A stretch of DNA of 64,000 nt from positions 10,733,574 to 10,797,573 of the forward strand of contig OZ025248.1 of assembly GCA_964019135.1 (NCBI GenBank). Reading direction: 5' to 3'. The position numbers were made by a program, and so were the translations under genes. This document shows, piece by piece, positions 2,611-63,410 of the stretch. This DNA comes from Arenicola marina. Lineage: Eukaryota > Annelida > Polychaeta > Arenicolidae. The stretch's first letter is position 1. Each line of letters opens with the position of its first letter. Below the pieces are notes generated by a model, which was given only the letters and a program-made list of their open reading frames with translations, did no database searches and was not told where the DNA came from.

Positions 2611-2673
2611 AACAACTGCAGGAGGCGCAACAATCTGGGAAGCAGGCCAAGAACGAGGCAGAGCAGTTACGTA
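2611..2673 (+). CDS. SLMAP: SLMAP-like exon A (coiled coil)
   Basis: The exon follows a clear acceptor (ttcgcag) and ends at the donor A|gtaagta. It starts with two bases completing a codon and ends with one base of the next, so it enters and leaves in phase 1. The reading is rich in E, Q, K and A (EQLQEAQQSG..., ending EAEQLR), typical of coiled coil. Joined to the next exon the split codon is ATG. Its last 30 or so bases, with the donor, seed the tandem array that fills most of the following intron. The exon copy reads TTA near its end, whereas the array copies I checked read TGA in the same register. Confidence 0.7.
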
Positions 2674-4085
2674 GTAAGTACTACTCTCACAATACCAGGC
2701 CCAGAACGAGGCAGAGCAGTGACGTAGTAAGTACTAATCTCACAATACCAGGCCCAGAACGAGGCAGAGCAGTGACGTAGTAAGTACTAATCTCACAATA
2801 CCAGGCCCAGAACGAGGCAGAGCAGTGACGTAGTAAGTACTAACCTCACAATACCAGGCCCAGAACGAGGCAGAGCAGTGACGTAGTAAGTACTAATCTC
2901 ACAATACCAGGCCCAGAACGAGGCAGAGCAGTGACGTAGTAAGTACTAACCTCACAATACCAGGCCCAGAACGAGGCAGAGCAGTGACGTAGTAAGTACT
3001 AATCTCACAATACCAGGCCCAGAACGAGGCAGAGCAGTGACGTAGTAAGTACTAATCTCACAATACCAGGCCCAGAACGAGGCAGAGCAGTGACGTAGTA
3101 AGTACTAATCTCACAATACCAGGCCAAGAACGATTCAGAGCAGTGACGTAGTAAGTACTACTCTCACAATACCAGGCCCAGAACGAGGCAGAGCAGTGAC
3201 GTAGTAAATACTAATCTCACAATACCAGGCCCAGAACGAGGCAGAGCAGTGACGTAGTAAGTACTAATCTTACAATACCAGGCCAAGAACGAGGCAGAGC
3301 AGTGACGTAGTAAGTACTAACCTCACAATACCAGGCCCAGAACGAGGCAGAGCAGTGACGTAGTAAGTACTAATCTCACAATACCAGGCCCAGAACGAGG
3401 CAGAGCAGTGACGTAGTAAGTACTAATCTCACAATACCAGGCCCAGAACGAGGCAGAGCAGTGACGTAGTAAGTACTAATCTCACAATACCAGGCCAAGA
3501 ACGAGGCAGAGCAGTGACGTAGTAAGTACTAATCTCACAATACCAGGCCCAGAACGAGGCAGAGCAGTGACGTAGTAAGTACTAATCTTACAATACGAGG
3601 CCCAGAACGAGGCAGAGCAGTGACGTAGTAAGTACTAATCTCACAATACCAGGCCCAGTACGAGGCAGAGCAGTGACGTAGTAAGTACTAATCTCACAAT
3701 ACGAGGCCCAGAACGAGGCAGAGCAGTGACGTAGTAAGTACTAATCTTACAATACCAGGCCAAGAACGAGGCAGAGCAGTGACGTAGTAAGTACTAATCT
3801 CACAATACCAGGCCCAGAACGAGGCAGAGCAGTGACGTAGTAAGTACTAATCTCACAATACCAGGCCCAGAACGAGGCAGAGCAGTGACGTAGTAAGTAC
3901 TAATCTCACAATACCAGGCCCAGAACGAGGCAGAGCAGTGACGTAGTAAGTACTAATCTCACAATACCAGGCCCAGAACGAGGCAGAGCAGTGACGTAGT
4001 AAGTACTAATCTCACAATACCAGGCCCAGAACGAGGCAGAGCAGTGACGTAGTAAGTACTAATCTCACAATACCAGGCCAAGAAT
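2642..4085 (+). repeat. Minisatellite of 53-bp units copying the exon A 3' end and 5' splice site, about 27 copies
   Basis: Units are about 53 bp: roughly 30 bp of exon A end (starting AGGCCMAGAACGAGGCAGAG), then the donor GTAAGTA, then TACTAAT or TACTAAC, then CACAATACCAGG. The first unit is partly the real exon. Copies are nearly identical, so the array looks young or homogenised. Every unit supplies a strong donor-like site, a branch-point-like motif and a CAG acceptor-like end. Frame relative to the exon is not kept (53 is not a multiple of 3), so use of an inner donor would shift the frame. Confidence 0.9.
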
Positions 4086-4547
4086 CTGGTTGTACCGTTA
4101 GCCATGAGCCGTTGGCCTGTCACTTCTTCCTGCCCCTCTGCCACCACACGCATCCCACCCATGTCGTTGTAGCCGGCCAATATTGACAGCTGAACGTCTC
4201 TGGATGCCACCTTAAATCTACTGGCTGCATTTCTATTGTGCGCATGACACCAAAGCGAACTTCGTTAAAGCCAACATGGCGGAAATCCGTCGCACAATCC
4301 ACACAAACCTACAGGTATCGGGAACTGTCACTATGATAGCATGGAATGGCATCGGGAGCAAAAGGGCTAATTGCTAAGTTAGTAGTAATAATGACCCTAT
4401 GAAGTCGCTGTTACGGTGACGACTGACTCTTCTCATGCTCCGTGACCCGGTGTAATCCACGTGTACACAAAGGTGGCTTAAAACTTCTCCAGCCGAGCAC
4501 GCTCGTCTCTGTCATCACCTAGTAATGGGTTGTTTCTCGTGGTTCAG
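4086..4547 (+). other. Unique remainder of the intron between exons A and B
   Basis: This sequence follows the 53-bp array and leads to the exon B acceptor at 4547 (ggttcag). Short open frames here on the minus strand show no coding signal. No repeats or RNA genes were seen. A pyrimidine-containing stretch (ttgtttctcgtggttcag) precedes exon B. Confidence 0.5.
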
Positions 4548-4658
4548 TGCGCCTGCGCAGTCTGCAGGAGGAGCTGGATTTCGAGCGGTCGACCCGGAGC
4601 CTGAGCAGCGCGACGTCCGCCCACCAGGAGATCCAGAACCAGGCCGCCAAGAACAGAG
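4548..4658 (+). CDS. SLMAP: SLMAP-like exon B (coiled coil)
   Basis: The acceptor ggttcag|TG was chosen over the closer cgcag because it keeps the frame with exon A: A plus TG gives ATG. The donor is AGA G|gtgggt. The product begins RLRSLQEELDFERSTRS and ends IQNQAAKNR, a charged coiled-coil segment resembling the coil regions of SLMAP and lamin-type proteins. The last 22 or so bases plus the donor are the seed of a second, larger tandem array directly downstream. The gtgggt donor is weaker than the consensus, and about fifty copies of it follow. Confidence 0.7.
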
Positions 4659-6815
4659 GTGGGTGGTGGGGGTGGGCAACCAGGCCGCCAAGGTGGGTGG
4701 TGGGGGTGGGCAACCAGGCCGCCAAGGTGGGTGGTGGTGGTGGGGAACCAGGCCGCCAAGGTGGGTGGTGGGGTGGGGAACCAGGCTGCCAAGGTGGGGG
4801 GTGGGGAACCAGGCCGCCAAGAACAGAGGTGGGTGGTAGGGGTGGGGAACCAGGCTGCCAAGGTGGGGGATGGTGAACCAGGCCGCCAAGAACAGTGGTG
4901 GGTGGTGGGGTGGGGAACCAGGCCGCCAAGGTGGGTGGTGGGGGTAGGGAACTAGGCCGCCAAGATGGGTGGTGGGGGTGGGGAACCAGGCCGCCAAGAA
5001 CAGTGGTGGGTGGTGGGGGTGGTGAACCAGGCCGCCAAGGAGGGTGGTGGGGTGGGGAACCAGGCCGCCAAAACAGAGGTGGGTGGTGGGGGTGGTGAAC
5101 CAGGCCGCCAAGAACAGTGGTGGGTGGTGGGGGTGGTGAACCAGGCGCCAAGGTGGGTGGTGGGGGTGGGGAACCAGGCCGCCATGGTGGGTGGTGGGGT
5201 GGGGAACCAGTCCGTCGAGAAGAGAGGTGGGTAGTGGGGTGGGCAACCAGGTTGCCAAAACCAGAGGTGGGTGGTAGGGGTGGGGAACCAGGCCGCCAAG
5301 AACAGAGGTGGGTGGTGGGGGTTGGGAACCAGGCCGACCAGAACAGAGGTGGGTGGTAGGGGTGGGCAACCAGGCCGCCAAGAACAGAGGTGGGTGGTGG
5401 GGGTGGGCAACCAGGCCGCCAAGAACAGAGGTGGGTGGTGGGGGTTGGGAACCAGGCCGACCAGAACAGAGGTGGGTGGTGGGGGTGGGCAACCAGGCCG
5501 ACCAGAACAGAGGTGGGTGGTGGGGGTGGGCAACCAGGCCGCCAAGAACAGAGGTGGGTGGTAGGGGTGGGCAACCAGGCCGCTAAGAACAGAGGTGGGT
5601 GGTGGGGGTTGGGAACCAGGCCGCCAAGAACAGAGGTGGGTGGTGGGGGTGGGCAACCAGGCCGCCAAGAACAGAGGTGGGTGGTGGGGGTTGGGAACCA
5701 GGCCGCCAAGAACAGAGGTGGGTGGTGGGGGTGGGCAACCAGGCCGCCCAGAACAGAGGTGGGTGGTGGGGGTTGGGAACCAGGCCGCCAAGAACAGAGG
5801 TGGGTGGTAGGGGTGGGCAACCAGGCCGCCAAGAACAGAGGTGGGTGGTGGGGGTGGGCAACCAGGCCGCCAAGAACAGAGGTGGGTGGTGGGGGTGGGC
5901 AACCAGGCCGCCAGGAACAGAGGTGGGTGGTGGGGGTTGGGAACCAGGCCGCCAAGAACAGAGGTGGGTGGTGGGGGTGGGCAACCAGGCCGCCCAGAAC
6001 AGAGGTGGGTGGTGGGGGTGGGCAACCAGGCCGCCAAGAACAGAGGTGGGTGGTGGGGGTTTGGAACCAGGCCGCCAAGAACAGAGGTGGGTGGTGGGGG
6101 TGGGCAACCAGGCCGCCAAGAACAGAGGTGGGTGGTGGGGGTGGGCAACCAGGCCGCCAAGAACAGAGGTGGGTGGTGGGTGTTGGGAACCAGGCCGACC
6201 AGAACAGAGGTGGGTGGTAGGGGTGGGCAACCAGGCCGCCAAGAACAGAGGTGGGTGGTGGGGGTTGGGAACCAGGCCGACCAGAACAGAGGTGGGTGGT
6301 GGGGGTGGGCAACCAGGCCGCCAAGAACAGAGGTGGGTGGTGGGGGTTGGGAACCAGGCCGACCAGAACAGGTGGGGGTGGCGAACCAGGCCACCAAGAA
6401 CAGAGGTGGGTGGTGGGGGTTGGGAACCAGGCCGCCAAGAACAGTGGTGCGGGTGGGGAACCAGGCCACCAAGAACAGTGGTGGGTGTGGGGAACCAGGC
6501 CGTCAAGAACAGAGGGGGGTGGTAGGGGTGGGGAACCAGGCCGCCAAGAACAGAGGTGGGTGGTGGGGGTTGGGAACCAGGCCGCCCAGAACAGAGGTGG
6601 GTGGTGGGGGTGGGCAACCAGGCCGCCAAGAACAGAGGTGGGTGGTGGGGGTGGGCAACCAGGCCGCCAAGAACAGAGGTGGGTGGTGGGGGTTGGGAAC
6701 CAGGCCGCCCAGAACAGAGGTGGGTGGTGGGGGTTGGGAACCAGGCCGCCCAGAACAGAGGTGGGTGGTGGGGGTGGGCAACCAGGCCGCCAAGAACAGA
6801 GGTGGGTGGTGGGGG
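4636..6815 (+). repeat. Minisatellite of about 41-bp units copying the exon B 3' end and 5' splice site, about 50 copies
   Basis: The unit is AACCAGGCCGCCAAGAACAG followed by AG, the donor-like gtgggt and a G-rich spacer (ggtgggggtgggc). Units between about 4659 and 5250 are variable in length and often lack the AAGAACAG part. Units beyond about 5300 are a regular 41 bp with a few point variants (accgacc, cgcccag). Because 41 is not a multiple of 3 and the unit is almost stop-free, long spurious open frames appear on both strands. G runs on the plus strand give strong quadruplex potential. Confidence 0.92.
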
Positions 6816-6910
6816 ACTTATAAATACAGCTTTATCTGATATTATCTGTATTCCACAAAGTGTGTGATGTATATCATCGGTCCTCACTGACGAGCACATT
6901 CTCTTTCCAG

Positions 6911-6986
6911 TGGAGTTCACATCTCTCAAGGAGGAGTGTACCGGACTGAGACAGCGGATACAGGATATCGAAACAGAAATGAGAAC
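6911..6986 (+). CDS. SLMAP: SLMAP-like exon C (coiled coil)
   Basis: The acceptor ctctttccag ends at 6910 and the donor is AC|gtgtgta. The exon enters in phase 1 (G plus TG gives Val) and leaves in phase 2 (AC plus C gives Thr). It encodes VEFTSLKEECTGLRQRIQDI followed by ETEMRT, a coiled-coil segment. The next GT, four bases on, would break the frame with exon D. This exon has no associated tandem array. It sits about 95 bp after the end of the 41-bp array. Confidence 0.7.
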
Positions 6987-7250
6987 GTGTGTACCCTCAT
7001 GTTCGTCACTTAAATTAGCACGGCATTAACTAGTATCACTTATAAGGCACTGTTTCGTAATATCAGAAAGTGCATTGATAGCTTATTCTTGCGCGCGGGT
7101 ACATAGCATTATACTCATCCCATCGTCGGCTGTATCTATAATCTGTTACCTTGAAGACCTTTAAAATGTTCGAAAGGTGTCACTTGTATGTGTAAGTATG
7201 TACGTCCATGTGTGTTGCTTACCCCCTTGCCTTTGCCTTGCCGTGCCCAG

Positions 7251-7410
7251 CTCGCGGATCGAGAACCAGCAGTTACAGACGGACTACGGCAAGCTGCAGC
7301 AATCCTACTCGGACCTGGAGCTGATGAAGGACAAGCTGGAGAACAAGGAAACACTCTGGAAACTCAACCTCACGGACGCCCAGAAGTCGGCTGAACTCAT
7401 CAAGGAGGAG
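7251..7410 (+). CDS. SLMAP: SLMAP-like exon D (coiled coil)
   Basis: The acceptor is gccgtgcccag and the donor is GAG|gtaggg. Length is 160 bp: one base completing the split Thr codon, then 53 codons, leaving phase 0. The product runs from SRIENQQLQTDYGKLQQSYS through a KLENKETLWKLNLT segment to AELIKEE. The W within a K/E-rich coil is the sort of landmark that could be checked against SLMAP. No repeat array abuts this exon. Confidence 0.75.
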
Positions 7411-8394
7411 GTAGGGAGAATTCGTGAATACGGGCCTGAGGTGCTGCGCTGTTTAACATGTATTGTATGTAACGATTTTGCTCGGGAATGATGTCAGTGG
7501 GGCTCAGTCCGTATGTTAGTGAGACTGGATGTTCGCTATGTTAACCACGGCATCCCGATCGACCCTATTAAGGTAAGCCACCCATAATAGCAAGGTAAAA
7601 GAACTCTGTATTTGTGATTATTTTATGAAAGTATACCCAAAAACACACCTTCTGGTGATTTTTTAGGATACTTTACCGTCCCGTTAAATAAAATATTCTC
7701 CATTTTCCAAGTATATCCCCATTTCATAAAATGACCAAAACTTGACACCTACCACGAATATGTAATTTTGCTACAATTCAGCTCGATATTAAGTCATTAT
7801 CATCAGTAAGAGCTCTTTGGAAAGCTTAAACCTAGTGCAATACAGGAATGATATTCAACAATTTAAATAGTAGCCACAAAAATAACAGAATGGCAATAAT
7901 AAAGTGCAGTTATGCACAGGACCGTTTTTGCCAAAATTCGAAATCACCACCTTCACAAAATTGGCTATAATTTCATCAAAAATGAAAAGCTTGACACCAA
8001 ACCACGTTTGAAAACTTCTAAAAACATAGTTCTTGTAATAAAAATGAAGAAAAATATAGATAGCCGTGCAAATTTCCCGAGAAACACGTCCTGAAACTTG
8101 AAAATGTTATTTCAGAAATATTTTTTGGAGCAGCTTATTTCACACCAATTATCAGTAATTTACGCCTTGTGCTCACATTTCAATAAATCTGGTTATATAC
8201 AATGGTCTCCGATATAATTATAATCTACACTAATGTTTTCTGAACTATTTACACGTTTTCTCCATGTTTTTTTCTTGAATATTCGGAATTTATCACGAAG
8301 AGCCATTCTCGGGGAAATACCCTGTGAATGACGTCACGAATTGAGGATTCCCTGTGAATGACGTAACGAGTTAGGGATTCCCCTTTCACTGACA

Positions 8395-8605
8395 CCCGGC
8401 GATGTTTGTCGATGTTTACCGAGGTCTTCTCTAAATCGCCGAAGCTTATTATACGATGTTCTATTTATTTTACCTATGTCACCACTTCTTTTGCTGTGTT
8501 TTATTTGTGCTTTGTTTCATTAAGACTGCTTAAAGTATCAGGGCTACAGCCCGCCGATGTTTGCCGATGTTTGAGGTCTGCTCAAAATCGCCGAGGCTCA
8601 TTATG
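8395..8605 (+). repeat. Pair of direct repeats of about 55-60 bp beside the tRNA-like units
   Basis: The segments at 8395-8455 and 8551-8605 share GATGTTTGYCGATGTTT, then GAGGTCT.CTC.AAATCGCCGA and CTTATTATA- or CTCATTATG-like ends. They are diverged, and about 95 bp lies between them. The second copy merges with the first tRNA-like unit, so the pair may be two copies of one short interspersed element body. Confidence 0.55.
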
Positions 8606-8752
8606 GGTAGCTCAGTTGAATAGAGCTGTCGGGGCGCCAAGCCGGCGGTCCTGGGTTCGAGTCCCGGTTGCGACACCAGTCGCTGTAGCTCAGTGGTTAG
8701 AGCTGCCGGCGCGCCAAGCCGGCGGTCCTGGGTTCGAGTCCCGACGGCGACG
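8604..8752 (+). mobile_element. Two tandem tRNA-like units, probably a tRNA-derived SINE or pseudo-tRNA pair
   Basis: Both units carry an A-box-like TAGCTCAGT and a perfect B box GGTTCGAGTCC. The second (8679-8752) folds into an acceptor stem gtcgctg/cggcgac, a D arm, a CCGGC/GCCGG anticodon stem with loop GCGCCAA, and a T arm with a mismatch at its base. The loop would give anticodon GCC, but position 33 is C instead of the near-universal U, so a working tRNA-Gly is unlikely. The first unit lacks a matching 5' acceptor strand. Tandem tRNA-like units with intact Pol III boxes suggest a SINE head or its relic. No clear SINE tail or target duplication was seen. Confidence 0.55.
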
Positions 8753-8925
8753 TCAAGATTTTCACATACATGTCCTGGTCTTGCATACGCTGTTGGCAAT
8801 ATTGGGGCATCACGTGTGAGAGATTGTAGCTTTCGTTGTGAACTACGTCATCGACATCCGACTATCGCTGCCATTTGCTTCCGTTAAGATAAAGACCTTT
8901 ACGCTAAACTCTCGGGTCGTTCCAG

Positions 8926-9060
8926 CTCACGAATGCCCAGCACGAGATCGCCGTTCTCAAGGCGAAGTGCGCTCGCTTCGAGCTGGAGATCAGCCAGCTG
9001 AAGGCCACCATGGGCGGCATGGAGGAGGAATACGGCGCGCTGGCCTACCGCACCAAGACG
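8926..9060 (+). CDS. SLMAP: SLMAP-like exon E (coiled coil)
   Basis: The acceptor gtcgttccag ends at 8925 and the donor is ACG|gtaagt. The exon is 135 bp, exactly 45 codons, phase 0 on both sides. It encodes LTNAQHEIAVLKAKCARFEL then a coil ending YGALAYRTKT. It is the last coiled-coil exon before the membrane anchor. The final 24 bases with the donor are the first unit of a 43-bp tandem array, the third exon of this gene with that arrangement. Confidence 0.75.
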
Positions 9061-9430
9061 GTAAGTCTACAGGCTGACCACGCTGGCCTACCGCACCAAG
9101 ACGGTAAGTCCACAGGCTGACCAAGCTGGCTTACCGCACCAAGACGGTAAGTCTACAGGCTGACCACGCTGGCTTACCGCACCAAGACGGTATGTCTACA
9201 GGCTGACCATGCTGGCCTACCGCACCAAGACGGTAAGTCCACAGGCTGACCACGCTGGCTTACCGCACCAAGACGGTATGTCTACAGGCTGACCATGCTG
9301 GCCTACCGCACCAAGACGGTAAGTCCACAGGCTGAACACGCTGACCTACCGCACCAAGACGGTAAGTCTACAGGCTGACCACGCTGGCCTACCGCTGGCC
9401 TACCGCTGACCACGCTGGCCTACCGCACTT
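9037..9430 (+). repeat. Minisatellite of 43-bp units copying the exon E 3' end and 5' splice site, about 9 copies
   Basis: The unit is CTGGCCTACCGCACCAAGAC, then G, the donor gtaagtctacag, then gctgaccacg. The first unit is the real exon end. Two later units have gtatgt instead of gtaagt, and the last ones are truncated or scrambled (repeated ctggcctaccg). Each unit also contains tctacag, an acceptor-like end, so a 31-base mini-exon lies between acceptor-like and donor-like sites in each copy. Confidence 0.9.
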
Positions 9431-9661
9431 TGCGATCATCATGCTCCCTGTAGACCGCCCCATTACCATGCTCACCAAATTGGGCGACACTTCGCGCTCA
9501 AATATTGTTTAAGTAAATTATTCCTGTTGCAGGAAAAGGAATTAATATGTATTTATTTCACTGAATTTGCAACACGGCTTGGACGCGCCCAATATACAGA
9601 TGTTCTCGCCTGTGAAGCTATTGAGCTGTTCTTTATGTGTGTTTGTTTCTGTTATCTACAG

Positions 9662-9769
9662 CTGTCGACGTGTTCCATGATCCCGCTGTTGATGCTGATG
9701 TTCGCCTTCATCGTGGCGTTCTACCCGGCCCTCTCCTCTCTCACGGCCACTTCTACCCCGGAGTCCTAG
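9662..9769 (+). CDS. SLMAP: SLMAP-like terminal coding exon F: membrane anchor and stop
   Basis: The acceptor ttatctacag ends at 9661. Entry is phase 0 from exon E and the frame stops at TAG (9767-9769). The 35 residues begin LSTCS and contain a hydrophobic stretch (MIPLLMLMFAFIVAFYPAL) and a short polar tail ending TPES. One membrane segment at the extreme C terminus after a long coil is tail-anchor architecture, as in SLMAP, whose anchor also follows a Met-Pro and has an aromatic-Pro near its end. The last 15 codons with the stop lie inside the first unit of a 46-bp tandem array, so tail length or sequence could vary between alleles. Confidence 0.72.
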   Translation: MSTCSMIPLLMLMFAFIVAFYPALSSLTATSTPES

Positions 9770-10390
9770 CCCGGCACTCCCCTCTATCACGGCCACTTCT
9801 ACACCGGAGTCCTAGCCCGGCCCTCTCCTCTCTCACGGCCACCTCTACCCCGGAGTCCTAGCCCGGCCCTCTCCTCTATCACGGCCACCTCTACCCCGGA
9901 GTCCTAGCCCGGCCCTCTCCTCTATCACGGCCACCTCTACCCCGGAGTCCTAGCCCGGCACTCTCCTCTATCACGGCCACTTCTACACCGGAGTCCTAGC
10001 CCGGCCCTCTCCTCTATCACGGCCACCTCTACACCGGAGTTCTAGCCCGGCACTCCCCTCTATCACGGCCACTTCTACACCGGAGTCCTAGCCCGGCCCT
10101 CTCCTCTATCACGGCCACCTCTACGCCGGAGTCCTAGCCCGGCCCTCTCCTCTATCACGGCCACCTCTACACCGGAGTCCTAGCCCGGCACTCCCCTCTA
10201 TCACGGCCACCTCTACACCGGAGTCCTAGCCCGGCACTCTCCTCTATAACGGCCACCTCTACACCGGAGTCCTATCCTGGCCACCTCTACACCGGAATCC
10301 TAGCCCGGCACTCCCCCTCTATCACGGCCACCTCTACACCGGAGTCCTAGCCCCGCATTCTCCTCTATCACGGCCACCTCTACAACCAGC
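9726..10390 (+). repeat. Minisatellite of 46-bp units copying the last codons and stop codon, about 14 copies
   Basis: The unit runs from CCCGGCCCTCTCCTCTMTCA through CGGCCACYTCTACMCCGGAGTCCTAG. The first unit is the true end of the coding sequence. The rest lie in the presumed 3' UTR. A degenerate end with CCTATCCTGG and a final CTACAACCAGCGAACC closes the array near 10390. Since 46 is one more than a multiple of 3, stop codons alternate in frame. No canonical AATAAA is visible directly after the array, so the transcript end is undetermined. Confidence 0.88.
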
Positions 10391-13657: not shown

Positions 13658-14070
13658 GTGTCCCCTTTTCGTGTTTCCTGGCCTTGTGCCAATAACCTGT
13701 ATTGTTTCGCTTGCAGGCTACCATAAACAAACGCATTGTTGTATGAATAATTTTGGCTGAAAACAAACCAATCGGCTGGAAAGTATATGTTTAAGGTTTA
13801 TCTGAGGTACATCTGGATTAGAAATGTGAAAGATTTGTGGAGTGGCACACCATGATTCGATGACACCTCCGTTCGATATGTCTTGTCTGATTGTAAATGT
13901 GATTACTCACAGGCAAGAGGTACATGTCGACAAAAAACCCACATACATATACCAGTAAGCAAGCTCTGTATACAGTATGAATAAATTTGCAATACAAGTA
14001 CTGCGTATTTCTTACTTTTTAATGAATTGGGTCGGCACTGTCGTGTGTGGGTGGATTTATGATGTAAACG

Positions 14071-26166: not shown

Positions 26167-26437
26167 CTTAAAGTACGGTCGGTGAGCCTCACCTGGGGCC
26201 GGTTGCACCAAGCGGTCGTAAAATTTACGCCGGTCGTATCGTGGTCGTATACGGTACGCCCTCCATACGTCGGTTGCACGACGTGGTCGCAAATCGTACG
26301 CGGTCGCAAAAGGGGGCGTAAATATACGACCACTACGGGGTAGGCGTACCGTGGTCGTATATCGGTAAAGCCACCAAGACCATCTCATTTCTTTGCTTAA
26401 ACACAATATTTACATGAGTAAATATTTTCAAGCTTAA

Positions 26438-29400
26438 AGGAATAGACTAGTCCGAGGATTTGTGCGTTGGATTGTCCTTTTCTTTTTAGCATATGCAAGA
26501 CAAGTAAAATATCTATTGAAATGATCAAAATTGAATATCAAAAAAAAATTAAGTAAAACGTTACGAAGGTTTTGTTGTGCCAAAAAAAATTTGGCGCGAA
26601 AGTTGGTTTTCCAAGGATCGAGTGAGAAATCGACCTTGACCTTGGATCCCGCGTCATTGGTGCTTAAAATGTTTTGAGCGCCCAGGTCAGCCATTCGTTC
26701 AACACTCAAAACAAACAAGCACATCTGGCCTTAAAATGCCGACGTGTTGTGGTCCTGGTTGTGTCCGAGTAAAGGAATCAAGCCCAGATTGTTCTTTCTT
26801 CCGCTTACCATGGGATAATGCGTCAAGGTCTCGTTTGTGGCTGGCAAAATTGAATCTTGTTCACCCCACCTGCCCACTAACACGGGCTTTGTCACCTCCA
26901 TTTTGAAGAACGTTTTCTCGTCATGGAGCCGCATCGCCCCAGAGTTATACCTGTCCTGAGACCTGTTCACAAACTCACTGCGGATATATTTCAACACAAG
27001 TCAGTGAAGGAAACAAGAAAAAAGTTCCTTGCATCGGAAGAGAACGCGAGATCACGAAGAGGGGAAGGTTAGTAGGCCCTACAGCGGCTTGATACGGTCC
27101 GTTCACAGGTTTGTTGACAAACCACCAAAGCCAGGGTCAAGCACCTAAGCCAAGGCTAATGCTAAATTGGGCCCTTTTGACAGTTTGATAGGCTTAGCAG
27201 GCCCCCTGTCTCAACTTATAATAATATAAGTGTGGTAGTGTCATCCCAAGTCTATGATATATCAAGTAAGCTAAGTTACTAACTTATCATGCTTATATGT
27301 TTATATATTAGATCTAGATCTAATAAATTCAATATAGCTTATTTCAATCCTCATCGACCGGACATATTTTTTAAATTGGAAATGAAGGAAATAATTCTTT
27401 TCAATGGAGAATGGGGCATTAACCGACCGCTGTCATCAATTATGTTCAGTAATCGTGAACTGGAAATTTTAATATTAAATAAGTTAACTGAATATCCAGA
27501 AATAGCCAATTCTCCTTTTAATTCATCATGACCTCCCCCCCCATAGATCTACCGGTACTGAGAACTATTACCCGGCTAAAAAAACACATCCGTGAAATCC
27601 TTCATAGCCATAATTTAAAAAAAAAATTTGTTTAGTTTTTATTTCAGCAAATTACAATATGTGAATAAGTATTGAAATATGTCTTTTTCTACATTTCAGC
27701 TCCTTCAGGAGCTTGAAGAAATACCAAGCATTAATGAAACTTCTGTTGTTGAGTCACACAATAAACTTAATGACCTTCCTGTGAAAATCAGTAGATTTTT
27801 TTTTTCTTTACAGTCATTTTTACATCAGAGCAAATAGATAATTTGCCATGATTAACAAGGCATGTTAAATGCACCTTTTTGGCTAGTTTAGGGTTGATAT
27901 GTCATGATGAATAGTGTGACGACATTTTTAGCATCTTAGAAGGTTCATAGATCGGAGTATGATGATTGTATTAAAAAATGGCTGCATGAGCAGAATTACA
28001 CAAGAGATACTGTATAGTATTTAATTACATATCCTTGACCTGTTGACACATATTGTGGGGGGAAATACAAAACCCTGGATGGGTTATTCTCTATAATGTG
28101 GGATATACTGACCCTATTGTCTAGCTAATTGCACATCGATTGCCAGATGCAGTTACCTTGTTTGGCAGAATGAGACCTGACCTGAGGGGGGTAAATATAA
28201 CTATATATAGGTTACATAAGATACCAGGTCCAGATTCATTTTATTATGGTTTAGCTGTATCGCATATATACATACACAAGCCATTGATTTGTTTAATAAG
28301 GATATTGTAACCAGTGTAATTATTCATCGACTGGTTGGTGAGACTGACCCAGATCACTGAAACAATGTGCAAGGTTTATTCAATGTTGATCATATACAAT
28401 GTAGTGTTCTTTTGGCTAATTGAATTAAAAGCCATTAATTTTACTGTGCCAATTCTAATTGTTGGATGGCAGTTATTGTGACTTGGATAGAGCTTGCTTG
28501 ATCTTGATATCCTTCACATAATCAATTGGACTCAGCAGTGACTTACTCCAAATGTATCCTTATGCTTATCAGAATTCGAATAAACTAGTAAAAAGCTGTG
28601 CAAGGTGCTTCTGATATAATGCCCATGAAAATGTAGCCATCAGTTTGATTTGTTGTGATTTTTATAAAACAAATAACTGCTTCCTTTGGACACCATCACA
28701 GTATGGGTGAATAAAAGATTTACTTCAAGCGTAATATAAGTTTCATGTTTTTTTTCATATTTCTTTTGCAAAATGTTATGAAATACTTTCATTTGGGAAA
28801 ATCAGTGCCTTGACAAAAAAAAAGTCTACTCACTACAAAAATTTGTTTTGGACGAAGTGAATACAAAATTGAAATATTCCATAATATTAAATATTCTATA
28901 AAGTGTTTTAAATTTTAATTTACATTATTAATTAATTATTATTGCATCCTTAATCAATTTTACACACAAAACTGTTACATTGGACACAATTTCCACCTTA
29001 CGGTCATTTTCAAGCAGTGTCAGATTTACCATTGCACTCACAACAAATATTACAATTCTGTTAAATGGTAATCACTATTCCTTAAATTCAGTATACTTTG
29101 AATACTGTTTTATGTAGCGGGAAACAACTGTTTCCGACAGGCCTGCAGTTTTAGGTATAAGTCACACATGTCTTCTACATGTACTGCTGTCGTGTATCGA
29201 AAAGAGGCCGAGTGTCCATACATCTCTGTCAAGGCATCTCTCGCTTGAGACAATGTATTTGCTCGCCATTGAGTGGAAAGTCATTTTGTTGCATACGGGA
29301 GTGATTTCCTGAACCAGCAGTTGGTTTTGCCTTTTAATTTATTATTCTTTCACGTTTGACCCGCGTTCACCGCGGCTACGTTGCGTTCATGATAAGGCTG

Positions 29401-29655
29401 AGACAGGGCAGGCTGTGTGGCCGCCTGGAACCTATGACGCGTTTTTTACGCAGCGCGCTGATTGGCTTGCGCTCTGCTCAGCATGCCGAACTCACAGTCG
29501 AGCGGGAAGCGGTAAATGTGAAGGTTTCAGTGCCAAATACTAATACTTATTGCTGGAGCCGGTAGCAACATACATTTTAGACTGATAGTTTGCATCTTGA
29601 TCTATATGTAACATGCTACGCCTTGCTGGCCCAAAAACCGGACTAAACTATTCCT
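26438..29655 (+). mobile_element. Kolobok-like DNA transposon inserted in the Harbinger-like element
   Basis: The ends AGGAATAGACTAGTCC and (reverse complement) AGGAATAGTTTAGTCC match at 14 of 16 positions. They are flanked on both sides by TTAA (26434-26437 and 29656-29659). TTAA duplications fit piggyBac or Kolobok. The N-terminal THAP-type zinc finger at 26736 favours Kolobok, whose transposases carry THAP domains. The interior is AT-rich. No continuous transposase core was found, and only short coding-like fragments appear at about 27700-27800 (plus) and 29110-29276 (minus). The copy looks degenerate. Confidence 0.65.
26736..27072 (+). pseudogene. THAP-domain fragment of a transposon protein, frameshifted
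   Basis: ATG at 26736 opens MPTCCGPGCVRVKESSPDCS, the C-x4-C start of a THAP zinc finger, followed by FFRLPW and RLWLAKL with the conserved Trp. The frame then meets TGA at 26904-26906. One base forward, the frame continues with CHLHFEERF, supplying the missing C-x2-H and the following HF, and then VIPVLRPVHKL before a K/R-rich tail ending at TAG (27070-27072). A single-base shift near 26885 therefore separates the two halves of the finger. THAP domains bind DNA and occur at the N terminus of Kolobok and some Harbinger proteins. An intron is unlikely because no splice sites fit. Confidence 0.7.
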
Positions 29656-30551
29656 TTAACTTGTATCATTTGTGCATCGACTAAAGCACATTTAAAGAAT
29701 TATTTTTTTCGGGACTATTTATGCAACTTTTATTTCCTTATTTTGTTGTGCACAATTTAACAATTACTCAATGTTATTGGTTGAACAATCCTTCCTTTTG
29801 TATTACTCTACAGCATTGAGACAGCAATATATCACTCGTACAGGGTGCAGTTTCATTACAACAGCAGCCACAGTACGAAATTAAAGCAGTATTTTACTAA
29901 TTTATTGAATATCTATGCCAGTAGTGTCCATGAGTCATCAATAGATAGATGTTTTACATAAAAGGGGTTTCCACCAATGGTGCAGTATTGTCATTAAAAG
30001 CAAGTTTTAGCGTCAATACCGTAAGATATTGTAGTCATGGTTTTTGGGGATGGTGCATATAATGACAAGCTACAAACAACAGTTTTTGTGTATTAAATTA
30101 ACAGGATTGTTCAATGACCCCATCTTCATGTAAGTTATGAACTAATAATTTGAAATAAATACGTCTTACTTGCTTAAAATGCCACTGTTACGGGAGCGTG
30201 AAAGTGAGTGCTAAAAGGCTCTTTTGCGCGCCCAATCTGGCAACGGTAGTTCTTTGTCTTTAATAAATGAGTTTGCGCCGATGTGGTACCGTCTCCTGTG
30301 CGGGAACCGTGCCCCTGCGAACGACACGGAGTCAGTGTGATGACAGACATGACACATTCCAACGGGGAAAACCCGAAACTTTCGGCTGGCGGGCGTAAGC
30401 AAGGACGTACGTGCGACCGCCTAAATTTTGGTTGGTGCAACCGACGTTAGCTCACGGGCGTAGAGAGGGCGGTGATACGTCCGGCGTTTTTACGTCCGGC
30501 GTTTCAGATTTGCGACCACCGTTTGCGACCGCTTGGTGCAACCGGCCCCTG

Positions 30552-33500
30552 GTGAATGTAGCGTGAATAAGAGTTATTTGAAGATGTACATTGCATCTCT
30601 CGCTTCCGAAACCAATAAAATAGCTCACTTACGTCGGTCCATAATCTATCTAAGAACCCACGAAATGTATTGTTGTGGCAATGGTAAACTTGAGTCATAC
30701 GTGAGCCAAGAAGAAACAGTGGTTTGCCCTGACATGGAAGAACGTCGGACGCTGCAGCCACAAGTCAGTTTAGTTCATCTTCAGTTTGCATGAATGAAGT
30801 CGTGTTTCGCATCAAGGCGCGTAGGCTACTTCGCATGGATTATATGTCATTATACAGACGATAATGGTCATTTGAATGTGGAATATGATAGCCTACAATC
30901 GTTCAAATTATTGGAGACTGAAAGAATATGATACGCAGCGATGTTGCGATGGTGTTTGAAACAGGTAACACCCAGTGCGTTGTTGATGCATAGGATACGC
31001 TTTGCAAACTGAGTTTCGTGGGATTCACGAGAAAGAAAATGATTTCCAGTGTGATTATGGGATATAAGGAAATGTCGGTATGTATTTTGCATATGAATTA
31101 CACATGATTTCAAATTCAGTTTCTAAAAGTGGATTTTGTGACCTACGCTTGTTTTGATGAGAAATTTGTATCTGTTTTTGCTGGGGCTTTCCATCGGCCG
31201 TCAAGCTTCCAGTTCATCATCCATTGTGGTTGTGACCTGTTTTAGACAAGCTCACTTATTGCTCATGATTGGCATTGCCTGCGATTGTCGATTTCGTAAC
31301 AGAAGGACGATTGTTCAACGGAAACATAGTTTGGTCTCCTTGAGTCGATCGCAATTTATCAGCTCGCTAAAACAGTACATTCGTGAAAAATAATGTACAG
31401 TTTAGACAATAGAATAACGTCATAGCAGTACTTTAATTAACGGTACATAGAAAAAACCTGTTTGTATAACCGGACGGCTATAACCGGATTGATTCTAATT
31501 CTCAGATGGTCAATATGTAATCACACTGACGTACTTGTAAATGTATGTACATGCCATGTGAGGGATGATATACTTTCTGCAAGTGGTCGTTATAACCAGG
31601 GCATCGCTAAACACAGGAGGCTTGCTTATTGGAGTATGCTTTATGACGGTGTCGGTTGGACGAGCCGCCCACAGCATATATATATATATATCAAGTCAGA
31701 TCTTGAAACCAGGTTTCACCCAAGCAAGGGCCGATCTTTTTGATGAAGAATGCCGTTTTTTTATGCAAAATTTAGGCCATCTGAGGCGTGGACCCCCCCC
31801 CCCCCCCCCCCCCCACTCACACACACACAGCCCCTGTCCCCTTTTTTGAGGAAGGACGCTATCTCTTCCTGGATCCGCCCCTGCCTAAGTATTTAGACAC
31901 ATATATGATGGTAAACCTATTATGTGTTGCAAAGGCGCATATATTACGATCGTAGCTGGCCGATCATCATACTATACGATTTTCCGGCAGAGGGCGTTCC
32001 GCTTACGCTATTGTTCGACGTGAGGAAGGAGCGCCCTCTACTGGCAGATTGCATATGTATGTCATCACTGACACGTCAATTGCTTCTGGGACAAGTCTGG
32101 CTTTTTTGGGCTTGCCTTGTCCCCCGAACCGAGGTCTCTATTTGTGTTGTAATGTGTGTACTGGTGTGGGATGATGCCACCCAGCGCATCTATGTTTATT
32201 CAGCGTAAAAGACCCCGCCAAATACCATGATCATTATTAGATGCCAATCAATTTAGGTATTTGGCGGTCACCAGTGCTGAAGGACACACATAAGATCCTG
32301 TGTACCAGTACCGGGGCTCTTATGCCCGCCATGTACATTCATATAGTGTAGAGATGCAGAGAAGAGTCTAGGCTCCAGACTCCATAAGGCGGATGTCACC
32401 CCTCGCTATTAGAACTACAGCTCTGGAATGTACAGAGCTTATCAGCCCAGAGTGTAGCGTATCCGCCTATTCATGACATGCGAGCATATAATGCGCTTAG
32501 TCTACATAACGAGCTAATGCAGACTTCTTTAAAGTTGCCCACTGAAAAAATAAAGGCCGCCCAGACAGACTCGTTCAGCTCCGGACGTGCCATTTTTATA
32601 TGTGTGTAGTCTGCAGGGCTCCTGATAAATGAAAAACAAAAGTCCACGAATATACACCACCTTCATGCAGTGAACCACATCCACCAGATCCGTGAACCAC
32701 ATCATCAGCGATATGGTGTCCGGCGTTGTTATGTTGTTCAGCGATATGGTGTCCGTTGTCATTGTGTTAAGCGATTGGGTGTCTGTAGTCACGGCAATGA
32801 AGCGCTATGGCTGCCCTGTCTAGGTATATTGGGCCAGGTGTTCAGCGATATGGTGTCCGTTGTCATGGTGTTCAGCGATATGGTGTCCGCTGTCATGGTA
32901 ATGAAACGCTGTGGCTGCCCTGTCTAAGTATATTGTATCAGGTGTTCAGTGAGATGGTTTCGTCGTCATGGTAATGAAGCGTGATGGCTGCCGTGTCAGG
33001 TGCTTTCGTGACGTAGGTTTACTTTGTTTCATCTTAACACTGTCAGTTTCGCTGTATCACAAGTACAAGCAAAATTTTATTCCATGTGTTCAAGACTAAG
33101 CTTATATGTCACTGCATATGTCTAAAATCTGTAATGAGTCACAATGTCTGACCCAGAACGACCGGACGAAATTTACTGTACATCTTTAGAACTACATATA
33201 CAGCGAAACGTTTACTGTATGAAGAATTGAAGTGTATGCCTTAGAACTACTTGGAGCATTGCATTAAATTAAACTATATGGGGAGGTCTACTGTATGTCC
33301 GACCCCTTCACCACAGTAGTACAGTAACAACTGACACGTTTATATCGTTCTGTTATGTTCACGCTTGAAGGCAATGCACGTGTCGCGCCGATACCACTTA
33401 ATTGGCACTAAATGGTTACACGATCGGTCATAATCATTCTTGTAGTACATCAAATATCATAAACCTAAAGTAAATATTACCCCGGAGCGACCTATTACAA

Positions 33501-35576: not shown

Positions 35577-35928
35577 ATGGCGGGCGAAGCAGATTACTAT
35601 GACCCGTACAGTCAGTACGACGACGAAGAAGAGGAGATGCCGGCCACCGAAAGGGAATTAGCCGATGACGCCCAATGGAAAGTAATCCAGAAGAATACCT
35701 TTACAAGATGGGCTAATGAGCACCTTAAAACCGTCAACAAGAATGTAGCAAGTTTAGAAACCGACTTCTCCGACGGGCTTCGACTGCTAGCGCTTGTCGA
35801 AGTGCTGTCCGGAAAGAAGTTCGCAAAATTCAACAAGCGTCCCAACTTCAGGACCCAGAAGCTGGAAAATGTGACCATGACCCTGAAGTTTCTGGAAGAA
35901 GACGAAGGGATTAGGATTGTCAATATTG
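35577..35928 (+). CDS. FLN: Filamin exon 1: N terminus and CH1 of the actin-binding domain
   Basis: The start ATG is in an optimal context (A at -3, G at +4), and an in-frame TAA lies at 35565-35567, so it is the first possible Met. Residues 1-24 are an acidic leader (DYYDPYSQYDDEEEEMPATE). From about residue 33 the sequence matches filamin CH1: QKNTFTRWANEHL, then SDGLRLLALVEVLS and QKLENVTMTLKFL. The exon ends ATT G|gtaggt in phase 1. In filamins CH1 and CH2 together bind F-actin. The leader is longer and more tyrosine-rich than in vertebrate filamin A as I recall it. Identification of the family is secure. Which vertebrate paralogue it corresponds to cannot be said, since an invertebrate gene would predate their split. 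Confidence 0.96.
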
Positions 35929-36274: not shown

Positions 36275-36367
36275 TAGCCTGAACGTTCAGACGTTACAGT
36301 CCTGACACTTGTTCTTGTGAGTCACAAGAAGAAGTGTCAGGACTGTAACGTCTGAACTTTCAGGCTA
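36275..36367. mobile_element. 93-bp foldback MITE with 9-bp target duplication
   Basis: Two 46-bp arms beginning TAGCCTGAACGTTCAGACG pair almost perfectly (two mismatches seen) around a single central base. CTAATCAGT flanks both sides as a direct repeat (36266-36274 and 36368-36376). A 9-bp duplication suggests Mutator-type mobilisation. The near-perfect arms imply a recent insertion or a structure able to form a long hairpin in the filamin pre-mRNA. Confidence 0.8.
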
Positions 36368-59264: not shown

Positions 59265-59516
59265 ACAGTACAGACATCGTGGACCACAAGCTGAAGCTGA
59301 TCCTGGGTCTGATATGGACGCTCATCCTGCACTACTCCATCTCCATGCCCATGTGGGATGGCGAAGAGGACGCGCCGGACAAGCCCGACATGACCCCCAA
59401 GCAGCGGCTGCTGGGCTGGATCAACAACAAGATCCCCGACAAACCCGTCCACAACTTCACCACGGACTGGAACGACGGCACCGCCATCGGCGCCCTGGTC
59501 GACTCCATTGCCCCTG
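59265..59516 (+). CDS. FLN: Filamin exon 2: end of CH1, linker and start of CH2
   Basis: The acceptor ccccgtacag gives an incoming phase 1 (G plus AC gives Asp). The donor is CCT G|gtgagc, phase 1. The exon encodes [20 protein letters not shown], then the invariant HYSISMPMW actin-binding segment, an acidic linker ([11 protein letters not shown]), [15 protein letters not shown] and [22 protein letters not shown], the first half of CH2. Similarity to vertebrate filamins is very high through the actin-binding helix. No internal repeat is present, and the donor is not followed by an array. Confidence 0.97.
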
Positions 59517-59975: not shown

Positions 59976-60073
59976 GCCTGTGCCCTGACTGGGACACATG
60001 GAACCCCAAGAACAAACTCCCCAACACCAAGGAGGCTCTCGATAACGCCGAGCAGTGGCTGGATGTACCCCAG
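59976..60073 (+). CDS. FLN: Filamin exon 3: CH2 continued
   Basis: The acceptor gtttag gives phase 1 (G plus GC gives Gly) and the donor is CAG|gtaggt, phase 0. The exon encodes LCPDWDTWNPKNKLPNTKEA and then LDNAEQWLDVPQ, directly matching filamin CH2. The next exon should begin with the vertebrate-like IAPEEIVDP region and was not found before the window ends. A tandem array starts exactly at this donor. Confidence 0.96.
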
Positions 60074-60800
60074 GTAGGTCACTAGTAGGCCACCAGTAGG
60101 TCACCAGTAGGTCACCTCTAGGTCACCAGTAGGTCACCTCTCGGTCACCAGTAGGTCACCTCTCGGTCACCAGTAGGTCACCTCGGTCACCAGTAGGTCA
60201 CCTCTCGGTCACCGGTAGGTCACCTCTCGGTCACCAGTAGGTCACCTCTCGGTCACCAGTAGGTCACCTCTCGGTCACCAGTAGGTCACCTCTCGGTCAC
60301 CAGTAGGTCCCCTCTTGGTCACCAGTAGGTCACCTCTCGGTCACCAGTAGGTCACCTCTCGGTCACCAGTAGGTCACCTCTCGGTCACCAGTAGGTCACC
60401 TCTCGGTCACCAGTAGGTCACCTCTCGGTCACCAGTAGGTCCCCTCTCGGTCACCAGTAGGTCACCTCTCGGTCACCAGTAGGTCACCTCTCGGTCACCA
60501 GTAGGTCACCTCTCGGTCACCAGTAGGTCACCTCTCGGTCACCAGTAGGTCACCTCTCGGTCACCAGTAGGTCACCTCTCGGTCACCAGTAGGTCACCTC
60601 TCGGTCACCAGTAGGTCACCTCTCGGTCACCAGTAGGTCCCCTCTCGGTCACCAGTAGGTCACCTCTCGGTCACCAGTAGGTCACCTCTCGGTCACCAGT
60701 AGGTCACCTCTTGGTCACCAGTAGGTCACCTCTCGGTCACCAGTAGGTCACCTCTTGGTCACCAGTAGGCCACCTATAGGTCACCAGTAAGTTACCAGTT
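60074..60800 (+). repeat. 22-bp minisatellite starting at the filamin exon 3 donor, about 33 copies
   Basis: The unit is GGTCACCAGTAGGTCACCTCTC, effectively two 11-bp half units. The array begins at the authentic donor (CAG|gtaggtcac). The half unit containing CAGTAGGTCAC differs from the donor context by one base (CAGGTAGGTCAC). Units are highly uniform, with a few CCCTC or TTGG variants, and decay after about 60760. It hugs the 5' splice site but, unlike the SLMAP-like arrays, copies almost no coding sequence. Confidence 0.92.
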
Positions 60801-62590
60801 AGTCACCAGTCAGTCACAGGCCCAAATACCTCACACTGTTAAATATGAAAGATTTAACGTTCAAACCATAGTAAGCCCGAAAGGACCAAACAATGTCCAT
60901 ACCAAGGTTACATGAAACAATGGGACTATTTGTTTCACGTCCACGTTATCGGCAACACATACTGTATTTCAGCATCCGTGCGGACTTACGCGTCTGGAAT
61001 CGTATTACTCTAAACCGACGCGGGATAGTGATACCGCTATTCTAAGGGTTAAGACGGCAGGGGCTTTTACCAATTAATATTTCTTCTCAAGGACCACTCA
61101 TTCCTGTAGCTGGAGTACCACCAAGGACAGTGTTCGTCAGGAGTGGGTGAGGAGGGTGGGGTGTTTGTGTGTGTGTGGGGGGAAGCGGGGGGGAGGGGGG
61201 GGGGGTTATAGGCTGCATGTCGGTTTCTTTACCTGGAATCCGGTGTCTGGTTTTTCTAACTGGGTTACCATCCTGGTTGTGAGCTCCATAACATATAGGG
61301 GACTATGTATAATCTGTATACACTATTTGGCTTGTCACTTCCATGCAATATGTGGCTGTAAAATTGTATATATAGACTGCTCCTAAACACTCCCGAGTCG
61401 TCTTTCTAGCGGTATAGCTCAAGCAGGGAGGTTGCTACGAGTGGATGGGATGTATTGGGTAATACCACTGACAGTGATTGACAAGGGCATCCTGTTCTTA
61501 TGGCGGCAGTCTGTTCTGATCCGAATCGAAAAGGCCTAGACAGTTGTCCAAAAACTACACTGTAACAAATGGTGGGGATATCCCACAAGTGTTTTTGTTG
61601 TTCATGCGCACAAAATTAATGTTTTGGGGAATTAGGGAGGTAATATAAAGCGGTATTCCTCTCCGGCGACCACCGATGCCGACTGCCCACCGGTGTAGAT
61701 ATATGTACTCGTGAGTGGCGCCATCTAGCGAACGCGCGAATAGATATGCTGACATCTGGCGGACAGTATTAGTAGTGAGTTCCTTTCGTCAGCGGGACTA
61801 CCAGTTGTCAGCTGCGGCTTTTAGAGGCCCAACGAGACTGTACACTACTGTGATGAACATATGGCTCAATCAAAAAATATGACAATTTCATCTTGTTTTA
61901 ATAATTAACTTTTAAAAGAATCATGCTTGCAAACAACTTTTGCACTATGGCCCCGATGTGAACCAGGGGCTCCAAACACCTCTCCTCATCGCCAAGCCAG
62001 GCCACCTATAGCACTCAACCTCCACAGCCGCCCTGTCGAACGTTCACCCATCTCTGCCGTAGTGATATATCTATTATTACAAGGAAAAACCAGTGTTACT
62101 TATGTTAGCGCGTCTAGACAGGTGGGCCTGGCCTGGCCTGGCAGTCTGTCGGCAGTCGGGTATCCAGAGCTTTGCGTAGGACAGGGAGAAAGTAGAAAGC
62201 GCTGGCAAATATACTATGCAATGAAACTGGCTGAGACATGTTCAAACTATGAAAGAAAGAAAACACTGTGGGTCTGGAGGCTTCGAACGTCGTGTTTTCG
62301 GAAGGAAAGGCTTTCAAAGAAGAAGTTACTTGGTGCATTTTTCTGACTGTGTCTGTGTATATATGTATATATATGTATATGTAGGCGGCAGGGCTATCCA
62401 GGGTCGTCCCTTTTGTGGGTGTATATATCCCATTGAATTGTCAAGGGTTAGTCAACTGAGAATAGATAGAACGAGAGGAGAGGGGCTTATGGCGAGGATA
62501 GCGTATGGATGGGGGGAAGGGGCGGGGCTGAAATGGCGGCAGAGCTATATTTCTGAATCTTACGGCGTAACGGATGAGGGAAAGTCTGAG
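60801..62590 (+). other. Filamin intron 3, unique part
   Basis: No filamin exon was found here. G runs lie near 61160-61205. TATATGTA-type simple sequence lies near 62355-62385. The segment 62100-62340 is open on both strands but matches nothing I know. Confidence 0.6.
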
Positions 62591-63410
62591 GATGTAACCA
62601 TGGGTGATAGGGAGGGTTTGGGCAAGGAGGGTGGGGATACGGTAGCGAATGAGGGGTGGGGAGGGTTTGGGCAAGGAGGGTGGGGATACGGTAGCGAATG
62701 AGGGGTGGGGAGGGTTTGGGCAAGGAGGGTGGGGATACGGTAGCGAATGATGGGTGGGGAGGGTTTGGGCAAGGAGGGTGGGGATACGGTAGCGAATGAG
62801 GGGTGGGGAGGGTTTGGGCGAGGAGGGTGGGGATACGGTAGCGAATGAGGGGTGGGGAGGGTTTGGGCGAGGAGGGTGGGGATACGGTAGCGAATGAGGG
62901 GTGGGGAGGGTTTGGGCAAGGAGCGTGGGTATACGGTAGCGAATGAGGGGTGGGGAGGGTTTGGGCAAGGAGGGTGGGGATACGGTAGCGAATGAGGGGT
63001 GGGGAGGGTTTGGGCAAGGAGGGTAGGGATACGGTAGCGAATGAGGGGTGGGGAGGGTTTGGGCAAGGAGCGTGGGGATACGGTAGCGAATGAGGGGTGG
63101 GGAGGGTTTGGGCAAGGAGGGTGGGGATACGGTAGCGAATGAGGGGTGGGGAGGGTTTGGGCAAGGAGGGTGGGGATACGGTAGCGAATGAGGGGTGGGG
63201 AGGGTTTGGGCAAGGAGGGTGGGGATACGGTAGCGAATGAGGGGTGGGGAGGGTTTGGGCAAGGAGGGTGGGATACGGTAGCGAATGAGGGGTGGGGAGG
63301 GTTTGGGCAAGGAGGGTGGGGATACGATAGCGAATGAGGGGTGGGGAGGGTTTGGGCAAGGAGGGTGGGGATACGGTAGCGAATGAGGGGTGGGGAGGAG
63401 CTGCGGAAGG
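62590..63410 (+). repeat. 49-bp G-rich minisatellite in filamin intron 3, about 16 copies
   Basis: The unit is GGGTGGGGAGGGTTTGGGCA, then AGGAGGGTGGGGATACGGTA and GCGAATGAG. Copies are nearly identical, with a few GAGCGTGG, GGGCGAGG and one-base-deleted variants. Each unit has four or more G triplets in close succession, a textbook quadruplex motif on the coding strand. Long minus-strand open frames of proline/histidine-rich protein here are periodicity artefacts. Confidence 0.92.

Follow-up and report, generated by a model that had tools for sequence, protein, structure and literature searches.

Published examples of mirages, minisatellite-like tandem duplications lying over exon–intron boundaries, come from a few amphioxus genes: Adh3, the globin genes BflGb6 and BflGb9, and PGBD5 (PMC3087553, PMC3902484). 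In the first of these papers, the units measure 10–72 bp in Adh3 and ∼150–160 bp in the globin genes, the BflGb6 haplotypes carry 3 and 6 units, and both kinds of boundary are involved, in single genes (PMC3087553). Human genes in segmental duplications also have internal tandem repeats at exon–intron boundaries, with units of 30 bp on average, that can alter splicing; these arrays are reported to have ∼4 units, belong to recent primate paralogues, be often kept in transcripts and be linked with novel introns (PMC2812944). Tandem genomic duplication of AGGT is described as a route of intron gain (PMC3443670), and earthworm metallothionein genes contain first-intron minisatellites with ∼180 bp monomers, for which the available text does not state that splice sites are spanned (PMC12783039). 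Among open-licence papers, searched by titles and the starts of abstracts, we found no report of donor-anchored arrays outside amphioxus and human.

We now report that in a stretch of DNA of 64,000 nt (here the window), and at other loci of the same assembly, exon ends are repeated together with their 5′ splice sites (donors) in long tandem arrays. In our judgement these are likely to be exon–intron-boundary minisatellites of the mirage kind in a spiralian, with a bias toward 5′ splice sites, that expanded through slippage or unequal exchange and are spliced from the first donor. Like the amphioxus mirages, they are boundary-spanning tandem repeats in which many units hold splice signals, and the unit sizes overlap; unlike them, they occur in a spiralian, reach ∼57 copies, can be several to a gene, are donor-biased, and turned up in exons sampled blind from many contigs. 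A mirage spans an exon–intron boundary and has a minisatellite-size unit with many splice-signal copies, and both properties are seen here; regular splicing is unaffected in amphioxus by RT-PCR, and frame and homology here fit the same behavior; length instability between alleles or somatically is a further mirage property, and the present material is one assembly. The likeness extends to the human repeats, which are also minisatellites at exon–intron boundaries, and to the earthworm genes, whose arrays likewise lie within an annelid gene intron.

Four arrays lie in a tail-anchored coiled-coil gene that we tentatively call SLMAP-like, a name given by no search. SLMAP has an N-terminal FHA domain, a coiled coil, and a tail anchor; coiled-coil matches and a C-terminal hydrophobic tail were seen here. 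Exons A–F, with canonical splice sites, join into a single open frame of 216 aa that ends in the hydrophobic tail and a stop codon. Two homologues were aligned with it: P0001, from a JGI metagenome (52% over 77%), which begins downstream of the A/B junction, and P0002, from Paralvinella palmiformis (45% over full length). The exons and arrays are:

2611..2673, + strand: exon A of the SLMAP-like gene (spliced frame, aligned with P0002)
2643..4084, + strand: array A, 53 bp x27 (TRF), 31 nt of exon A end plus 22 nt of intron with GTAAGT
4548..4658, + strand: exon B (spliced frame, homologue alignment)
4637..6815, + strand: array B, 41 bp, exon B end plus GTGGGT (TRF span 4662–6815; first copy from 4637)
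6911..6986, + strand: exon C, donor without array
7251..7410, + strand: exon D, donor without array
8926..9060, + strand: exon E (spliced frame, homologue alignment)
9038..9426, + strand: array E, 43 bp x8, exon E end plus GTAAGT (TRF 9038–9395, then a degenerate tail)
9662..9769, + strand: exon F, which encodes the hydrophobic tail and holds the stop codon (spliced frame, homologue alignment)
9724..10384, + strand: array F, 46 bp, last codons including the TAG stop, running beyond the stop (TRF)

TRF and the reading frame agree that exons A, B, and E end inside arrays that repeat the exon end with its 5′ splice site, as an earlier note on this DNA had described. Each unit combines exonic and intronic bases (22 + 19 nt in B, 23–25 + ∼20 nt in E), and the arrays fill much of their introns: 1411 of 1874 nt for A, 2157 of 2252 nt for B (in 57 split pieces, most of them 28–41 bp), and 366 of 601 nt for E. 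No array was found at the donors of exons C and D. The 46-bp array does repeat the last codons and the stop, but it sits at the stop codon, so the earlier note's placing of all units at exon boundaries holds for A, B, and E. Its six exons were all recovered; exon A is internal, however, and the gene therefore has more than six. Its description of the units as unrelated is less than fully certain, since A and B share an exonic similarity of ∼20 nt (p = 0.007, uncorrected over 21 comparisons). Searches gave no match for the SLMAP-like protein in GTDB genome contigs and none for the array unit in viral contigs.

The homologues align without gaps at the exon junctions (A/B, P0002 only; B/C and E/F, both P0001 and P0002), and the first copy of each array is thus the real exon end and the remaining copies are intronic; relative to the 216-aa frame, P0002 is 5 aa shorter within exon B and 3 aa longer at D/E. 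Since the exon ends are conserved in the homologues, the copying ran from exon to intron. All 26 complete later copies of array A contain TGA, and the exon copy alone has TTA (Leu). Scoring donor-like sites by a donor consensus, with a threshold of 2 bits or more and with the real site among those counted, we found that a full-length in-frame product results from 1 of 28 sites in the exon A region, from 8 of 144 in that of B, and from 1 of 9 in that of E; besides the real one, frame-keeping sites number none in A and E and seven in B. Frame and homology thus suggest that only the first donor is used, in which case the array would be spliced away and the protein unchanged. The acceptors of the host introns lie 96–464 bp beyond arrays A, B, and E. 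This separates the arrays from intron gain of the AGGT (Rogers) type: both are tandem duplications that bear splice signals, but here the acceptors are outside the arrays, the two splice sites of an intron do not both come from an AGGT, and arrays A, B, and E have produced no new intron.

The placement of the arrays was compared with chance. With limits of −60..+5 chosen after the arrays had been seen, 4 of the 7 major arrays of the window start near one of 8 donors (binomial p = 1.6e-7), or 4 of 12 when minor arrays are included (p = 2e-6); outside 2611..10390 the figures are 1 of 3 major arrays (p = 0.011) and 1 of 7 with minor ones (p = 0.026). Instability driven by G-quadruplexes was considered and rejected, because the splice-site arrays of the window have no canonical motif: none was found in arrays A, B, E, and F, in the filamin donor array described below, or in the array at 14070, and the array at 62610 has 16.

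The window also contains a filamin gene, whose first three exons match human filamin-A (E = 8e-92), with PF00630 matches downstream:

35577..35928, + strand: filamin exon 1 (filamin-A match); the gene begins at 35577
59265..59516, + strand: filamin exon 2 (filamin-A match)
59976..60073, + strand: filamin exon 3 (filamin-A match)
60074..60817, + strand: 22-bp (11-bp) array from intron base +1 of the exon 3 donor (TRF)

The SLMAP-like and filamin genes are neighbours here; compare SLMAP and FLNB, which appear next to each other in a table row for human 3p14.3 (PMC2686725). The array at the exon 3 donor is a fifth array, overlooked in the first reading; most of its copies read CCA/GTAGGT, weaker than the real CAG/GTAGGT. 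No array spans any of 19 hand-listed filamin donors past exon 3, among which one degenerate array starts from +5 (91503) and another from +28 (85570); further predicted filamin exons were covered by the array-edge scan described below. Two candidates on the acceptor side of this gene were discarded. The array before exon 5 (67624) does not span the acceptor, as the likelier acceptor lies ∼115 bp beyond the array end, and a nine-base repeat at the exon 2 acceptor is not an insertion, as this part of the protein matches human filamin in length.

Filamin also allowed the animal to be placed. In a tree of the actin-binding domain with 19 named relatives, the window sequence groups with Capitella, the snail Candidula, and the flatworms Schistosoma and Macrostomum (support 98/97). 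A clade uniting it with vertebrates is rejected (p-AU 0.0007), as is one that takes in both vertebrates and sea urchins (p-AU 0.00007); a 32-row tree that includes metagenome proteins agrees. Neither tree holds a lancelet filamin. From these sequences the animal is most likely a spiralian and not a lancelet, and we reject an amphioxus origin on a filamin tree that contains no lancelet. The earlier note had pointed to mirages in amphioxus Adh genes; the name is indeed in print for Adh3 and globin genes (PMC3087553), but a link by descent is not supported, as the filamin tree places this genome elsewhere.

We extended the survey to the window plus 200 kb flanks (264 kb in all), where 51 arrays of at least 150 bp were found; some arrays lie away from any exon found (14070, 62610). 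Upstream, a 48-bp array begins at the donor of an exon ending ...QELYQLAQYLQ and followed by gtaaac (C1:10717 kb), and a 15-bp array runs from intron base +1 after an exon ending ...METESQ (C1:10721.9 kb); the former exon probably lies upstream in the same SLMAP-like gene, to which the latter probably belongs as well. Downstream, on the other strand, a 27-bp array starts from +1 after a P450-like exon (C1:10876–10877 kb), recognised by eye from its signature FGFGPRTCA. We scanned 64 arrays of at least 100 bp, on both strands, for a coding-like exon with a donor at the 5′ end of the array or an acceptor at its 3′ end. The donor side gave 7 matches and the acceptor side 0, where random positions predict 1.95 and 2.15; one of the 7 is false, lying inside the coding tandem of filamin repeats, and the scan is incomplete, as neither array A nor the 48-bp array was among its matches.

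A sample chosen with the DNA unseen came from one gene family across the whole assembly (867 Mb, 762 contigs): 75 exons out of 133 genome-wide kinesin-motor matches, taken broadly in table order. Rows were dropped for an internal stop, for reaching the domain end, or for coming from one gene whose open frame is long and undivided; rows on three small contigs were also left out, as were one row of the last batch and the final part of the table. Within the 0.8–1.1 kb taken around each exon, we located the donor of 70 of the 75 exons and the acceptor of 74. At 13 of 70 donors an array starts in the interval −90..+5, and at 4 of 74 acceptors one ends in the interval −5..+90 (Fisher p = 0.019). Requiring 6 or more exonic bases inside the array leaves 10 of 70 donors and 3 of 74 acceptors (p = 0.042), one of these three having two copies only. 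For arrays of at least 60 bp, the density of starts per free kb is 2.09 in the exon-end bin, 2.07 in the intron bin +6..+100, and 0.50 in the bin +100..+300; the exon-end density exceeds that of the deep intron (p = 0.004) and of the acceptor edge (p = 0.026). For array ends the densities per free kb are 0.57 in the exon-start bin, 0.79 immediately before the exon, and 0.21 further out. The counts are modest, the bins were fixed after 60 of the 75 exons had been seen, and the p values, 0.004 to 0.04, are uncorrected. For the first 60 exons alone the balance by eye was 8 donors to 3 acceptors, not significant (sign test p = 0.23); in the last batch of 15 exons, for which the criteria had been fixed beforehand, it was 4 of 14 donors to 0 of 15 acceptors (p = 0.042). 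One further exon, L098, was left out of the count, its unit including the exon end and its TRF start lying at +56.

The earlier note had proposed a genome-wide test of array starts near donors, and in this blind sample the predicted enrichment appears, over acceptors and over deep intron alike. Its notion that duplication is favored at exon 3′ ends is supported to that extent. These counts do not single out the splice site as such, for starts are equally dense over intron bases +6 to +100, and around acceptors, too, array ends are denser than at a distance. Moreover, 12–16 of 56 points placed 60–300 nt past a kinesin donor fall within an array; in introns so crowded, crossing a donor (10 of 70) is no commoner than crossing an intronic point.

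Donor-anchored arrays have units of 15 to 92 bp, and the donor is retained in most copies of A, B, and E and of the others printed. In L075 the unit, read by eye, is the exact exon end SRSHAIFTIVFTQ followed by gtaacg. Arrays with different units stand at donors on several contigs, and four of eight kinesin exons around the conserved motif ...GGNxxT have a donor array, again with differing units. In the paralogous exons L084 and L089 the last 24 residues are identical and the array units measure 50 and 37 bp, an indication that arrays were born separately at the same donor.

These observations suggest a course of events in which a donor segment, 0 to ∼54 exon-end bases plus ∼6 to 40 intron-start bases, would be tandemly duplicated, at a birth rate that may be raised within ∼100 bases of donors and less so of acceptors; such a raised rate would account for the donor bias. 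The array would then expand into the intron through slippage or unequal exchange, processes assumed here by analogy with known minisatellites. Splicing that kept to the first donor would remove the array and leave the protein as it was. A duplication within an exon would disrupt the frame and disappear unless it straddled a coding-to-noncoding boundary, selection thus removing exon duplications neither spliced out nor behind a stop; the same coding-to-noncoding logic would also cover the 46-bp stop-codon array.

Selection might also do all the work: minisatellites would arise anywhere at a high rate, with no special birth at donors, and those touching exons would persist only where they are spliced out. 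This is the alternative that survives best, though we hold it to be unlikely. The abundance of arrays in the 264 kb, the crowded kinesin introns, and the exon-free arrays all fit it, and the lower GC of the deep intron (0.42 vs 0.55) could explain part of the density contrast. A filter alone, however, should not lift the density of starts above that of neutral intron, as seen at the exon end (2.09 vs 0.50 per kb), and acceptors should be tolerated too, where 4 of 74 were found against 13 of 70. Base composition does not explain this last difference, as exons without donor arrays have similar GC at their 3′ and 5′ edges (0.545 and 0.556).

The arrays could instead be functional, rows of donor-like sites serving as U1 snRNP platforms or as poison donors that tune expression. 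Most decoy donors in arrays A, B, and E do equal or approach the real donor in strength, and most would lead to a premature stop. Yet in filamin the real site is stronger than most of the copies, the unit differs from gene to gene, and a count of variable columns shows no clear advantage in conservation for the donor bases over the remainder of the unit. We hold this reading to be very improbable. We do not claim selection on decoy donors: in A and B the donor bases look less variable when changed copies are counted, and differ little from the rest when variable columns are. An assembly artefact is the least credible alternative, for although tandem arrays are difficult to assemble, the window lies within a 77-Mb contig, the copies vary by point changes and length variants, and different-unit arrays recur at donors on several contigs.

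Relative to the literature searched, the lineage, the scale (as gauged from one gene family and 264 kb), the array length, and the measured donor bias of these boundary minisatellites appear to be new. The recurrent copying of exon ends in several unrelated genes raises two questions: how is the right splice site found, and why are repeats born there? Competition among identical 5′ splice sites is a classic problem of splicing, and these natural genes, with 8 to ∼40 near-identical donors in a row of which frame and homology suggest that the first is used, would make the rules of donor choice testable in vivo. Donor-biased birth of minisatellites within one genome would likewise make the origin of boundary repeats, and the proposed step from repeat to new intron, countable genome-wide. 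More tentatively, the neighborhood of the 5′ splice site may be a genome-wide hotspot for the birth of tandem duplications in a spiralian lineage, with about 1 in 5–6 internal exons having the end or donor amplified, to judge from the 13 of 70 kinesin donors; such exons would present rows of near-identical donors of which the first alone must be used, and these would form a standing supply from which new introns and exons could arise.

Two of the sampled kinesin genes, L063 and L041, have arrays that span the acceptor. These mirror the donor arrays, the minisatellites that repeat an exon end and its 5' splice site. Donor arrays are present in four kinesin genes (L084, L089, L094, and L096), at about the same conserved position and with units that differ.

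The SLMAP-like gene carries, in the intron 3' of its exon D, two tRNA-Gly-like sequences in tandem (8607-8752), one of which is predicted as a tRNA-Gly(GCC) gene. An element at 26189-30555, bounded by 34-nt terminal inverted repeats of 94% identity, is probably the remnant of a DNA transposon; a short open frame within it appeared THAP-like by eye, and comparison of that frame with Pfam gave no match.

Filamin intron 1 holds an inverted repeat (36275-36367; 46 nt, 96%) with a 1-nt spacer between its arms. A tandem array (62610-63398), 3' of filamin exon 3 and not at the splice sites identified, is composed of a G-rich 49-bp unit and has 16 G-quadruplex motifs on the + strand. Beyond the window, at C1:10813729-10815502 (window coordinate 80156-81929) on the same contig, filamin repeats lie in tandem with a period of 285 bp, all of them inside a single open frame of 1446 aa; this tandem is an amplification of entire domains within an exon.
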